From positions 1-42,668 of the forward strand of contig JACOYL010000013.1 in the NCBI GenBank assembly GCA_016181895.1: 42,668 bases of DNA, in the 5' to 3' direction. The notes below the pieces were generated by a model, which had not been told where the DNA came from, did no database searches, and saw only the letters and a program-made list of their open reading frames with translations. This stretch comes from Candidatus Pacearchaeota archaeon (GTDB taxonomy: Archaea; Nanobdellota; Nanobdellia; Pacearchaeales; GW2011-AR1). Positions 2,387-42,230 of this stretch are shown here, piece after piece (within the stretch, counting starts at the first letter, position 1; each line of letters opens with the position of its first letter). The position numbers and the translations under genes are program-made.

Positions 2387-3271
2387 ATGAACCCCTCTCT
2401 ATACAAAAAAATCATCGCAAAAAAGGAATTTTCGCAGTTGCCGAAAAAAGACGTTCTTATGGCTTTGGAAAAATTTGAAAAGAAAAACTTGAACGATTGG
2501 CAAAAAATAAAAATGACTCGCGGATTTCTGAGGAAAATTTATTCAAGTTTTTCAAGCAGAAAAGTTTTTTCCACAAAAGGAAAAAATGTCGAATGGTATT
2601 TGATGAAGCACAAGTCAAGCAAAGAAAGATTTCCATATTACAATGAAATTTATGAAAGAATTTTTCCAAAGCGCGGAAAATTTAGCATTGTTGATTTGGG
2701 CGCTGGAATAAACGGGCTGAGATTTTTAATTAATCTTTCCCGCCTTCCAACCCCCGACCACCTCGCGACCCCGCTTACTTATGGATTATCCCGCGAAATC
2801 GCTCGCCCACCCCAAGGAAAAAATGTTAATGAATATACCTTTTCTAAAAAAATGACGTCCCGCATAATTAATTATATTGGGGTTGAAGCAATAGGGCAAT
2901 TTGTCGAGTTGATGAACGGGTTTTTCAAGAAAAACAAGAAAAATTGGAATGCAATCCACGCCAGCCTGTTTGAATTAGAGAAAGTCGGGGAATTGATAAA
3001 AAAACAGAAAAAGCCGAGAATTATTTTGCTTTTGAAAGTGATTGACTCGCTTGAAGTTATGAAAAGAGATTATTCAAAAATCCTGATAAAAGAAATCGCG
3101 CCTCTTTCAGACAGGATAGTTGTGAGTTTTGCGACGCGTTCTCTTGGAATGAGGAAAAAATTTTCCGCGCAAAGGGCCTGGATTTTGAAATTCATCGCGG
3201 AAAATTTTGAAATCCTCGATGATTTTGAAATCGGGGGAGAGAGATATGTTGTGTTTGAGAAGAAAGATTAA
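2387..3271 (+). CDS. 16S rRNA (guanine-1405-N7)-methyltransferase-like protein (FmrO/Arm family), interrupted by an in-frame repeat
   Basis: SAM-dependent methyltransferase resembling the FmrO/ArmA/Rmt family that modifies the ribosomal A site. Visible features are KHKSSKERFPYYNEIYERIF (74-93), SAM motif I VDLGAGING (102-110), a post-I strand YIGVEAIGQFVELMN (163-177), ILLLKVIDSLE (213-223) and the family-like VVSFATRSLGMRKKF (245-259). Residues 117-162 do not belong to the fold: they are encoded by a 138-bp copy of the window's intergenic repeat, placed between motif I and the next strand. The reading frame stays open throughout, so the protein could still be made with a surface loop of 46 residues. 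Alternatively the gene is decaying. In archaea the physiological role of this family is not settled. Confidence 0.75.
   Translation: MNPSLYKKIIAKKEFSQLPKKDVLMALEKFEKKNLNDWQKIKMTRGFLRKIYSSFSSRKVFSTKGKNVEWYLMKHKSSKERFPYYNEIYERIFPKRGKFSIVDLGAGINGLRFLINLSRLPTPDHLATPLTYGLSREIARPPQGKNVNEYTFSKKMTSRIINYIGVEAIGQFVELMNGFFKKNKKNWNAIHASLFELEKVGELIKKQKKPRIILLLKVIDSLEVMKRDYSKILIKEIAPLSDRIVVSFATRSLGMRKKFSAQRAWILKFIAENFEILDDFEIGGERYVVFEKKD
2735..2872 (+). repeat. intergenic repeat inserted in frame in the methyltransferase gene
   Basis: 138 bp (46 codons) flanked by a perfect 8-bp direct repeat TAATTAAT (2727-2734 and 2865-2872). The interior matches intergenic copies: CCAACCCCCGACC, CTCGCGACCCCGCT, then CGCGAAATCGCTCGCCCACC and AATGTTAATGA in the same order as at 32821-32920. 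Removing one direct repeat plus the element rejoins RFLIN to YIGVEAIG, as expected for the methyltransferase fold. No stop codon is present in the host frame. Confidence 0.8.
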
Positions 3272-3655
3272 ATTTATTTAATCCCTCATACCAATTCTCC
3301 CGACCAACTTGCAACCCCACGTTCCTACCCTCAACAATCCATTTTAACTATCAAACAAATTTTATCATAATAATTTCACGCTGGATTTCACATTATCATT
3401 CACATCAAAAATTTTCTATAATTTTCCTACCCCTCAGGAAACCAATGTTAACTACAATAAAATTCCATCCACTTAAAATTTTTACATTAATCTTTTTATA
3501 TCAAAATGCGAGTTGCGAAGCAACGAGCCAATTTAAGCGAGGCGAAACCGAGTGCTTTGACTTTGGCAAATTTATTTTATTAATATAAAGTCGCGGCACG
3601 AGTAGAAGGCGAGCGCGGAATCTATGATTAAGCGAGACATTCGGGACAAGAAATC
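3272..3655 (+). repeat. intergenic repeat region (two degenerate units plus hairpin elements)
   Basis: No gene seen. C-rich boxes near 3334 and 3426 are each followed by an A-rich stretch and TTTTAACTAT or GTTAAC. TTTACATTAATCTTTTTATA begins at 3481. A hairpin element (3505-3552) contains GTTGC-GAA-GCAAC and an imperfect GGC-GAA-ACC. A second hairpin (3552-3599) pairs GTGC and GACTTT with AAAGTC and GCAC; a relative lies at 42140-42186. Confidence 0.75.
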
Positions 3656-10179: not shown

Positions 10180-10538
10180 CTCGCGACTATTCTCGATATC
10201 ACTTCATTTAATTTGTTCCCACCCAACTTGCAACCCCGCTCGTTTTTGATTCTCCTCGAACGCCGATGGCACGTCGTGAAGCTGCCCGCCCGCGGAAACA
10301 AGTATTAATAAAAACCGAGTTCATTGACTATTAATCTTTTTCCATTGGCGAAAATCTCTTATCGAATTCAATAAAGCCGAGTTTGAGCATATTAATTTCT
10401 CTCGCAAAATCGTTCACCAACCCCAAAAATATTAACCCATAATCATAATTTTATCAACATCACGATATAGTTTGCATATTAACAATTCATATATCAGCAA
10501 TAAATTTTTTACATTAATCTTTTTTATTTTTCCTCATT
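10180..10538 (+). repeat. intergenic repeat region
   Basis: No gene seen. It contains GTTCCCACCCAACTTGCAAC (from 10216), a GC-richer stretch with GCCCGCCCGCGG (about 10280), then GTATTAATAAAAACCGAG and CTATTAATCTTTTTCC. A second unit starts TCTCGCAAAATCG (about 10404) and ends TTTTTTACATTAATC. The flanking genes are both on the minus strand, yet the repeats keep the same + orientation as elsewhere. Confidence 0.7.
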
Positions 10539-15542: not shown

Positions 15543-15955
15543 TTATTTGTTGAGTTTAAAAATAGGGATTTTAACTTTTGAATTTATTTTGTTTATATTT
15601 TAATATTCTTTTTTCTTATTTTTCATTTTTTTGTCCATTGTAATTCCACTTTCTTACTCTGCTCGCAATCCCGTTCGATATAACTTCATCTAATTTGTTC
15701 CCACCCACCCGCCCAAAACCCAGATTAATGATAAATCCTATTTTGAGAAACTTATAAACCGATAATAAAGAACTTTCATACGTTAATCTAATTTCAAATA
15801 AACTTCGCTCGCATATTTAATAATAAGGTTAATCAAAAACCATTCTTTAACTAATATTAACATTTAAAATTTTTTACATTATCCTTTACAAATATTAGAA
15901 TGCGAAGCATGAGACAATTTGAGCGAGCGCATTGCGCTGGCGAGCGAATTCGACA
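15543..15955 (+). repeat. intergenic repeat region with G4 box and hairpin element
   Basis: No gene seen. The C-rich box at 15700-15714 is followed by GATTAATGATAAATCC and a degenerate second unit with CGCTCGCATATTTAATAATAAGG shortened, then TTTTTTACATTATCC. A hairpin element at 15899-15950 contains ATGC-GAA-GCAT and the palindrome AGCGCATTGCGCT. Confidence 0.7.
15700..15714 (-). other. G-quadruplex motif in repeat unit
   Basis: The + strand reads CCCACCCACCCGCCC, so the minus strand is GGGCGGGTGGGTGGG: four G-triplets with 1-nt loops, the most stable G4 class. Confidence 0.75.
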
Positions 15956-16499: not shown

Positions 16500-16867
16500 A
16501 TTAATGGATAAACTTTTTCTTTTAATCAATTTGTTCCCACCCGCCCACCCCAAAAGAATGTTAACTGCAAATCCAACTTTAATTAGATTAATCAACATAC
16601 CACCAACTTTTATAGGTAGGTTTTTACATTAACCTTTTTATATATCCTCGCGAAGTTGCTCTCCCCGCAACCCGACTTTATTATTAATAATTTTAAAATT
16701 GTTAAAGTCAAATTGCTCTCCCGCCCTAAAAATCCAAATTAATTATAAATCAATCACGACTTTCAATTAATCTATTATTCTGTAACATTAACATGCGAAC
16801 GAACGAAGTGAGTGAGCTGTTTTAATAAATCACAGACAGGGATTATCTTTTTTTCAACAAGTCAAAT
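16500..16867 (+). repeat. intergenic repeat region with G4 box
   Basis: No gene seen. The unit starting GTTCCCACCCGCCC (16533) continues through GTTAACTGCAAATCC to TTTTTACATTAACCTTTTT. A second unit starts TTGCTCTCCCGCCC (about 16713) and runs to ACATTAACATGCGAACG. The ends carry GAACGAACGAAGTGAGTGAG. Confidence 0.7.
16536..16550 (-). other. G-quadruplex motif in repeat unit
   Basis: The + strand reads CCCACCCGCCCACCC; the minus strand is GGGTGGGCGGGTGGG with 1-nt loops. Confidence 0.75.
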
Positions 16868-28130: not shown

Positions 28131-28310
28131 AGTTCTATTCATTCACTAATCTGCAAAATTTATTCTTCCCACCCAAGAGAGCCGATATTAATCTATAAAC
28201 GATTTTTATCAATTTCATAGAGTATACGTTAATTTTTTCAAATTTTTAATCCATAAATAAAAGGGGTGATAAAATTTCCACACTTTTATCATGAATTTTT
28301 TATTGAGATA
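28131..28310 (+). repeat. intergenic repeat unit
   Basis: TTCCCACCCAAGAGAGCCGA, then TATTAATC, TTTTTATCAATTTCAT and GTTAATTTTTTC. One degenerate unit in + orientation; nothing else seen. Confidence 0.6.
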
Positions 28311-31815: not shown

Positions 31816-32240
31816 CAATTCGTAAATCGCGTTCCCACCCGCCCACCCAAGGGAACAGATTTTAATGATGAATCTAATGATGAATCAAATTTTTATAAAC
31901 TTTAAAAGTAGGATTGTATGTTAACATAATTCAAATAAATTTCTCTCGCAAAGTCGCCCGCCCTCCCTAAGAACAAAGGTTAATAATTAAGAAAATCTCA
32001 TCAACTATTTTAAATTCAGGGTTGGACATTAATCTTTTTTAAATTTGTCTCGCAATCTTATCAACCCACCCAAGGAAACCACTGTTAATAGTAAAACCGA
32101 CTTTAATCAAATTAATCAACACGCCGTCACCAACTTTTATGAGTAAGTTTTTACATTAATCTTTTTCATCTAAAACTGCTGCATTATGAAAATACTTTAA
32201 CTGATTTTTCCAACAAGGAATTATAAGAAACATTTTTAAA
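31816..32240 (+). repeat. array of three repeat units with about 110-bp period
   Basis: The C-rich boxes start at about 31834, 31948 and 32060, followed by TTTTAATGATGAATC, GGTTAATAATTAAG and TGTTAATAGTAAAACCG respectively, and end in ACATTAATCTTTTTTAAATT and TTTTTACATTAATCTTTTTC. The junction TCTCGCAAAGTCGCCCGCCC shows how one unit leads into the next. This is the clearest view of the unit. No gene seen. Confidence 0.8.
31834..31848 (-). other. G-quadruplex motif in repeat unit
   Basis: The + strand reads CCCACCCGCCCACCC, bracketed by the inverted repeat GTTCCC/GGGAAC (31831-31836 and 31851-31856). The minus strand is GGGTGGGCGGGTGGG. Confidence 0.75.
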
Positions 32241-32808: not shown

Positions 32809-33214
32809 TCCGACCGAGCCAACTCCCGAATTCGCAACCCTGCTCGTTGTGAATTTAGCAAACTTGTCTCGCAAAATTGCTCACCACCCACTCCTAAAAA
32901 CCATGCTAATGACAAATCCGACTTTGAGAAACTGATAAATTAATGATAAAGAACTTTTACATGTTAACCTAATTCCAAATAAATTTCACTCGTGGAGTTG
33001 CTCACCAACCAAGATTAAATAACAAAACAGTTTTCATCAATTGTAACTTCACATTAACCTTCTTAAAATAACCCTCAAGAATTTCCCATATTCTCCCGAG
33101 AAATCATTTTAACTGAAAAAAGATTTTTATCATTGTTGCCAATTTAGCAATATAAATAACTATGGTAAATTTTTGATTAACCTTTTGTTTTTTCGGATTC
33201 AACATTCGGCTAAT
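32809..33214 (+). repeat. intergenic repeat region (three degenerate units)
   Basis: It begins with the 5' part seen also in the methyltransferase insertion: CCAACTCCCGAATTCGCAAC, CCTGCTCGTTGTGAATTTAG, then CTCGCAAAATTGCTCACC and GCTAATGACAAATCCGAC. Two further units follow near 32990 and 33080, ending CACATTAACCTTC and GATTAACCTTTTG. No gene seen. Confidence 0.7.
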
Positions 33215-35369: not shown

Positions 35370-35888
35370 TATTAGGAAAAAAATTAGGGGTTTTTAAATT
35401 AATATCCCATCTTCCTTCTCCCTAATTCGCAAACCCCCAAATTTTTCAATGACCTTATTTTGTTCCCACCCACCCGCCCCAAGAAAAAGATATTAATGAT
35501 AAAACCAGGTTCATCAAATATTAACCAATTCGATAAAATTTTTTGCGTTAATTTTCTTTCAAGTAATCCTCGTGAATTTGCTCGCCCTATACAAAGAAAA
35601 ACGAGGTTAATGATAAAAATTTTATTAGAGGTTATTAGTTGAGCAAATTTGTGAAATTATCCTCCTACAGAAAATATTAATCCAAAATCATAATCTTTTA
35701 TCAAATATAATCAGACGTGGTTTTGTACATTAACTTTATATTATTAATATTGCGAGCGAATTTGCCGTTCATCTTATAAAAAATGTTAATTCACAATCAA
35801 ATTTTATCAACCTAAAATTATTTCCATCAATCTTTTTATGTCAAATGCGAATTGCGGAGCAAGAGCCAATTTAAGCGAGGCGAAGCCG
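35370..35888 (+). repeat. intergenic repeat region (four units) ending in a hairpin element
   Basis: Units begin near 35461 (G4 box), 35570 (GCTCGCCCTATAC), 35660 and 35758. Typical cores are TATTAATGATAAAACC, GGTTAATGATAAAAATT and GTACATTAACTTTATAT. The hairpin element at 35845-35890 has TTGC-GGA-GCAA and GGC-GAA-GCC and runs into the truncated EF-1beta gene. No other gene seen. Confidence 0.75.
35465..35479 (-). other. G-quadruplex motif in repeat unit
   Basis: The + strand reads CCCACCCACCCGCCC, followed by a further C; the minus strand is GGGCGGGTGGGTGGG. Flanking genes are both on the minus strand. Confidence 0.75.
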
Positions 35889-41299: not shown

Positions 41300-42034
41300 A
41301 TGAAAGCAGTAATTCTTTGCGCGGGATTTGCAACAAGGCTTTATCCCCTGACTTTGGATAAGCCGAAATCCCTGCTGGAAATCTCTGGAAAACCACTTTT
41401 GAATTATATCGTTGAAAAAATAGAAAAGATAAATGAAATCAATGAAATTTCAATTGTCACAAACGAGAAATTCCTCAGCCAATTTGAAAAATGGCTTCAG
41501 GAAAACACAAAAAAATTTGAAAAGAAAATCAAAATAATAAACGACGGAACGAAGACAAATGAAACTCGCCTTGGAGGAATAGGGGATTTGGATTTTGCAA
41601 TTAAAAAAGAGAAAATCAATGAGGATTTGCTCGTTGTTCTCGGCGACAATCTGTTTGATTTTGACTTAATTTCTTTTTTGGAATTCTTCAAAAAAAAGAA
41701 CGAAGTTTGCATCGGAGTTTACGATTTGAAAAACAAGGAAAAAGTTAGACAATTAGGCGTTTTGGAAATTAAAAATCAAAAGTTGATTTCATTTGAGGAA
41801 AAACCGCAAAATCCCAAATCAACAATTATTTCAACGGGAATTTATTTTTTTCCGGGAAAAAACTTGAAGAAAATTTCGGATTACATGAAAACAGACAAAC
41901 CGAAAGACGGGCCCGGATATTTGATTTTGAATTTATTAAATTCACAGGACATTCATGTTTTTGAATTCAGGGGAAAATGGTTTGACATAGGAACAAAGGA
42001 AATTTATGAAAAAGTAAAAGACATGATTTTCTGA
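41300..42034 (+). CDS. NDP-sugar nucleotidyltransferase (RmlA-like)
   Basis: 244 residues from the ATG at 41300. Starts MKAVILCAGFATRLYPLTLD, with the LCAGxxTRLxPLT phosphate loop and KPKSLLEISGKPLL. Then LLVVLGDNLFDFD (metal-binding Asp), GVLEIKNQKLISFEEKP and TGIYFFPG are all typical of glucose-1-phosphate nucleotidylyltransferases. It makes an activated sugar for glycans, possibly those on the N-glycosylated surface proteins. TTTATACT lies 27 nt upstream. Substrate not determined. Confidence 0.88.
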   Translation: MKAVILCAGFATRLYPLTLDKPKSLLEISGKPLLNYIVEKIEKINEINEISIVTNEKFLSQFEKWLQENTKKFEKKIKIINDGTKTNETRLGGIGDLDFAIKKEKINEDLLVVLGDNLFDFDLISFLEFFKKKNEVCIGVYDLKNKEKVRQLGVLEIKNQKLISFEEKPQNPKSTIISTGIYFFPGKNLKKISDYMKTDKPKDGPGYLILNLLNSQDIHVFEFRGKWFDIGTKEIYEKVKDMIF

Positions 42035-42230
42035 TTTTGTTTCCCACCCATCCTAAGAACAAAGGTTAATGATAAAACAACTTAACGTTGATAAGTAGAG
42101 GATAAAGAATTTTTATATTAATACCATATTAATATGAGGGTGCTTTGACTTTGACAAATTTTATATTAATAACAAAGACAGAGCACGAGTTAGAAGCAAC
42201 GAGCCAATTTAACAAATTTGCAACAGAAAT
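42035..42230 (+). repeat. intergenic repeat unit with 60-bp hairpin element
   Basis: TTTCCCACCCATCC, then AAGGTTAATGATAAAAC, and a hairpin (42140-42186: GTGCTTTGACTTTG with CAAAGACAGAGCAC) related to 3552-3599. Confidence 0.65.

Follow-up and report, generated by a model that had tools for sequence, protein, structure and literature searches.

The stretch of DNA analysed here (the window, 42,668 nt) belongs to the genome of a Candidatus Pacearchaeota archaeon (G000, an 89.8% complete MAG). At positions 2387-3271 (+) it carries a gene for a predicted FmrO-like (Arm/Rmt-type) 16S rRNA methyltransferase of 294 aa. The encoded protein scores 25.7 bits against the FmrO Pfam family, slightly below the cut-off of 27, and its predicted fold (an AlphaFold model with 28 archaeal sequences as alignment input) is nearest in structure comparison to RmtF, RmtB and ArmA (E 2.7e-13), all of which are 16S rRNA methyltransferases. 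A sequence-only reading had proposed that this gene is interrupted in frame by a copy of a repeat family found between genes, and that the element has no stop in the frame. Both points were confirmed: the ORF runs uninterrupted for 294 codons with the repeat copy contained in frame, a profile of the family matches the segment, and orthologues are without it.

Matches to the FmrO-like protein were identified in 39 of 92 related genomes. Pairwise matches to family-level orthologues stop at about residue 113 and restart at about residue 158, and the alignment places the extra segment in the window protein only (0 of 28 measured orthologues). Since 53 residues separate motif I (GAGIN) from the invariant Tyr163 in this protein, compared to 11-15 in the 28 orthologues, it has gained a net 38-41 residues (114-123 bp). 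The insert had first been read as residues 117-162 (46 residues, 138 bp), with a clean excision that would restore RFLIN-YIGVEAIG. The expectation that close orthologues lack the segment was borne out, but its size was not, as a 138-bp excision would shorten the interval to 7 residues, below the range of the orthologues. The last residues of that first-proposed insert, EYTFSKKMTSRIIN, resemble the native helix (orthologues possess, for example, SYPFFKKIGLNIN), a similarity with a shuffle P of 0.009 that was reached by none of 175 control translations from downstream of other copies; residues 149-162 look native from this comparison and from the model. The insert is best placed at 2726-2839 (+), a span of 114 bp coding for residues 114-151, with ± ~3-12 nt at either end. 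This estimate is based on the orthologue length comparison, the low pLDDT of residues 118-147 and DNA similarity to other family copies, which is strong up to ~2836 only. TYGLSREIA, a family-encoded peptide from within the inserted segment, is fairly similar to the orthologues by score as well, and the exact ends are therefore uncertain by a few residues.

A sequence-only profile of the repeat (R1) was used to search the genome contigs, giving 119 matches at E<=1 and 86 at E<=0.01 in this genome, and 81 at E<=1 in its congener (G001). Of 50 other genomes searched, only three other genera showed matches, with one or two weak ones each; many copies are found only in G000 and G001. The family core consists of a C-rich box followed by AAGAAAA, AATG and TTAATGATAAA. 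Two modules of the repeat were recognised in the FmrO insert: module A (CCAACCCCCGACCACCTCGCGACCCCGC, 2742-2785, +), which aligns with a copy in an RsmB/F gene described below, and module B, the core (CCCGCGAAATCGCTCGCCCACCCCAAGGAAAAAATGTTAAT, 2786-2836, +), which R1 matches at 50 bits. This copy was part of the R1 training set; an independent profile, trained on 60 other copies and not on the in-gene one, matches 2786-2853 with E=3.4e-13 (351-nt target). At E<=1, BLASTN with the FmrO gene segment hits this genome at 17 further positions. Five occurrences of the motif CCAAYCCCCCGACC were counted in the ~310 kb examined of this genome, each adjoining a core copy and co-oriented with it.

Elsewhere in the window, R1 identified intergenic copies, all on the + strand, at 10396-10457, 15689-15750, 28158-28213 and 42027-42083, with two copies each in 16532-16756 and 32863-33040. 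Three further copies form a head-to-tail array with a period of ~105 bp at 31826-32111 (matches 31826-31883, 31940-32005 and 32044-32111), and another four an array at 35456-35811 (matches at 35456, 35567, 35649 and 35778). A weak copy (3310-3369, +, 17.7 bits) lies directly 3' of the FmrO-like gene. Such head-to-tail arrays, with a period of ~100-115 bp, are common in the family. No known motif was found for the repeat; Rfam gave no gathering-threshold match in the window, and near the FmrO-like gene its matches were at chance level only. The copies are irregularly spaced and divergent, and because of this divergence the family looks old. Of the claim that it is or was mobile, the past part (mobility or copying) is strongly implied by several in-gene sites and more than 80 dispersed copies, while the copies, all of them divergent, give no sign of current activity.

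The 8-bp sequence TAATTAAT is present at 2727-2734 and again at 2865-2872 (both +), and four times in total in the 42.7 kb. The sequence-only reading had pointed to this exact direct repeat, which, taken as a target-site duplication, would make the element a MITE-like transposon with a transposase as its mover; the dispersal of its copies, some of them inside genes, agrees with such an origin. Although both copies of TAATTAAT are in place, their reading as a duplication is not supported, because the left one resembles the end of the repeat and the right one encodes native residues. The left copy is contained in TTTTTAATTAATCTTT, which falls short of the family end motif TTTTTACATTAATCTTT by one base (here TTTTTA-ATTAATCTTT), while the right copy provides the codons of a conserved I-N-Y (Y163 is invariant in 28 sequences) that several orthologues share as KINY, NINY or GINY. 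An exact 8-mer is shared by chance in 8% of AT-rich segment pairs 110-138 bp apart. Nor did the 8-bp repeat recur when looked for at other insertion sites: the ends of the RsmB/F insertion share no 7-8 bp repeat and no 7-mer, those of the MnmA insertion show A-rich short matches only, and element ends are alike only by a loose CATTAA-like motif. The 7-residue remainder after 138-bp excision and the lack of inverted repeats (none of >=6 bp in the FmrO insert) also argue against a MITE-like transposon, which is considered unlikely.

The repeat element is non-palindromic. No subterminal hairpin was seen in the FmrO insert and no stable fold beyond that of shuffles (z 0.1-0.8). It had been described as a G4-type element, a label that does not suit this copy, as a strict G4 motif (four runs of >=3 G, loops of 1-7) is absent from both of its strands and present in 15 of 123 family copies. 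The segment could instead be an intron, or a stretch skipped before the protein is complete (a bulge-helix-bulge intron or translational bypass), as its position within a conserved helix adjoining the SAM site and the short repeat on both flanks might suggest. However, the segment is a stop-free multiple of three, as translation would demand, its folding is no more stable than that of shuffles, there is no inverted repeat from which a bulge-helix-bulge could form, and in-gene copies of the family occur in both orientations; removal or skipping is very improbable.

Coding sequence makes up ~77% of the stretches examined, which amount to ~40% of the genome, yet only 3 of 123 matches lie credibly inside genes. 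Besides the FmrO copy, one is located in an RsmB/F gene (L099, contig C19) and one in an MnmA gene (L083, contig C23), both antisense to the gene. When the FmrO copy is compared by BLASTN with the rest of the family, the RsmB/F copy ranks first (E 7e-7; alignment score 101, shuffle maximum 54); its loop sits between VIEGK and EPGELG. The MnmA copy (R1 E 1.5e-4) lies ahead of RIRQVGEL. Each of the two occupies a stretch that is absent or different in most relatives. At the RsmB/F site most relatives are without the loop and several, including G001, G008, G009 and G015, carry other inserts; at the MnmA site G-rich inserts are found in G001 and G017, that of G001 with CCAATCCCCCGACC on the antisense strand. 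FmrO, RsmB/F and MnmA are all RNA-modifying enzymes, which may be a coincidence. Several other matches that seemed to lie inside ORFs were rejected because the ORF was short, its N-terminus had been over-extended (L085) or the match was weak and of A/T type. A second match in RsmB (E 0.32) was judged to be native.

The AlphaFold model of the FmrO-like protein has an overall pLDDT of 86. Residues 118-147 are mostly below 50, with a helix at residues 148-158 immediately after this disordered stretch, and the rest of the fold is confident. In the model of RsmB, insert residues 85-149 are likewise disordered on an intact fold; both inserts are thus modelled as disordered loops tolerated with an intact core. 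Such a loop next to the SAM motif might instead be a neutral scar in a decaying gene, or an assembly artefact. The FmrO gene of the congener G001 is indeed broken at the same helix, being split across two contig ends (the end of C9, L031, and the start of C17, L032), and its C-rich tail, which is unique, contains a stop in frame. Decay or artefact is nevertheless very unlikely for the window gene, given its open frame, its retention of 11 invariant positions, a C-terminal half ~59% identical to relatives, a core modelled with high confidence and the recurrence of the same pattern in three genes of the genome.

Other inserts were identified in the same genes of relatives. The FmrO inserts of G023, G034 and G045, which belong to other genera, are unrelated to the C-rich repeat. 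FmrO of G023 (L017) possesses two in-frame inserts of ~28 residues each, both with arms ACAAAATCT/AGATTTTGT, and FmrO of G034 and of G045 one in-frame insert each, sharing GGCGTACACCAAGGAGGTGYGAGAACCTCTACGAGGCCCCGAA at differing positions. A short piece of the G034/G045 element, ATACCCTAAAGGGCACRAG, was found in five genera of the family (G004, G017, G031, G045 and G053), with a longer form also in G034; a reversed-pattern control gave 0 matches. Thirty sites of this piece (among L185-L230) were examined: 25 lie in frames of >=100 codons, and 17 share one sense frame, translated as (D/N/Y)TLKGT(R/S). By eye, candidate host genes resemble those of cysteinyl-tRNA synthetase, the DNA polymerase large subunit and aIF2-gamma. 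In the RsmB/F gene of G009 (L127), an insert of ~30 residues stands between copies of a 20-bp host repeat, CCTGAAGTAATGATTGTTGA (PEVMIVE), which looks from its sequence like a long target duplication. MnmA of G025 (L151) has at least two in-frame inserts, with G-rich-coded stretches such as VGGEGGR and VGGGGGG.

Orientation of the C-rich copies is strongly biased. In this genome 82 of 86 copies lie on the shared strand of their contig, against a mean of 55.7 and a maximum of 67 in 2000 shuffles; for G001 the count is 46 of 47 (shuffles: mean 34.8, maximum 42). Flanking genes point the same way as the element in only 41 of 71 cases; orientation is therefore a property of the chromosome strand, independent of gene direction. 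All in-gene copies obey the polarity of their contig (FmrO, + on C22; RsmB, + on C19; MnmA, - on C23; G001 MnmA, - on C3). The mix of tandem, divergent and convergent neighbours around element-bearing gaps is the same as for other gaps, and a terminator or promoter role was rejected on that ground. The polarity is probably linked to replication, judging from the strand bias, with GC skew (inconsistent between contigs) and an orientation switch inside contig C1 (between ~2.7 and 15.4 kb) pinpointing no origin. A replication origin at this switch was considered and rejected, as no Orc1/Cdc6 gene was recognisable in the C1 stretch examined around it.

Elements of the IS200/IS605 type and REP elements are moved by Y1 transposases, insert with strand bias and are not expected to duplicate their target. 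The window repeat shares their strand bias and differs from them in lacking a subterminal hairpin in its insert and a Y1 transposase in its genome. Y1, the sole transposase type sought, would fit the bias as the mover, yet none was found in G000; two are present in G001, with no repeat copies nearby at E<0.1.

Strong contig-wide, gene-independent polarity kept in two species, together with head-to-tail arrays and a conserved core, is also what would be seen if the C-rich units were functional polar sites, serving chromosome organisation, replication or repair and spread by duplication and conversion, with in-gene copies as rare by-products. The divergence and irregular spacing of the copies and the lack of a known motif or Rfam family weigh against this, and it does not by itself explain the entry of copies into genes. 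Such a role is a real possibility, though short of probable; it is compatible with the preferred explanation and differs from it only in why the family exists.

That preferred explanation, to which a probability of roughly 0.8 is given, is that a ~110-bp copy of a genus-specific, C-rich and non-palindromic repeat, from a family tied to one strand, inserted into the FmrO-like gene and yields a disordered and approximately neutral loop. The copy would have landed where the Arm/Rmt-type methyltransferase gene encodes the first helix beyond SAM motif I. Its survival there would be owed to a length divisible by three, to the absence of stops in the frame, and to a product, a disordered surface loop, that spares the fold. 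The loop is presumed to be translated within the enzyme and to be neutral or nearly so. Insertion or retention appears tied to the DNA strand, probably through replication, because copies keep one chromosomal orientation whatever the direction of the gene; candidate routes are insertion into single-stranded DNA at the fork and selection against one of the orientations.

In-frame repeats of this kind have been described for the palindromic elements of Rickettsia (Ogata et al. 2000, as cited in PMC2229807 and PMC2996958), where one had a mild measured effect on guanylate kinase, and also for Wolbachia (PMC2229807, PMC2996958). The sequence-only reading had likened the window element to those of Rickettsia. 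In effect the likeness stands: both are ~100-150 bp and are found between genes and in frame within conserved genes, at sites tolerated by the fold. In structure it fails, the window element being non-palindromic, without a long stem-loop, strongly strand-polar and found in genes in only ~3 of 123 copies. The archaeal setting, offered as a novelty, is not one, as coding palindromes were already known from Methanocaldococcus jannaschii (Suyama et al. 2005, according to the accounts in PMC2229807 and PMC2996958). By these accounts those too are archaeal repeats that have coding potential and have become part of protein genes; they are described as palindromic and come from another lineage. MITEs of bacteria and archaea (reviewed in PMC10969869) resemble the window repeat in being short, non-coding, dispersed, mostly intergenic and sometimes fused in frame. 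The window repeat differs in having neither terminal inverted repeats nor a proven target-site duplication, and no partner transposon was found (only Y1 was sought). What appears to be new, within the literature searched, is the in-frame insertion of a non-palindromic, polar repeat, along with the breadth of such insertion across one archaeal family.

A wider, speculative and on balance rather unlikely proposition is that small coding insertion elements of several classes, each specific to a lineage, exist in this archaeal family, and that its C-rich class is placed by a replication-strand-coupled process without a known transposase and repeatedly equips RNA-modification enzymes with disordered loops, whichever direction it is read in. 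The lengthening of proteins by in-frame repeat insertion has been known from a few intracellular bacteria and a single archaeon. The present case adds small archaea belonging to a Nanoarchaeota-type lineage, where RNA-modifying enzymes are affected and the same genes have received differing elements in different genera. This archaeal group offers a natural experiment in how non-coding DNA turns into protein, and the strict strand polarity, an unusual feature, gives a testable lead on the spread or retention of such repeats.
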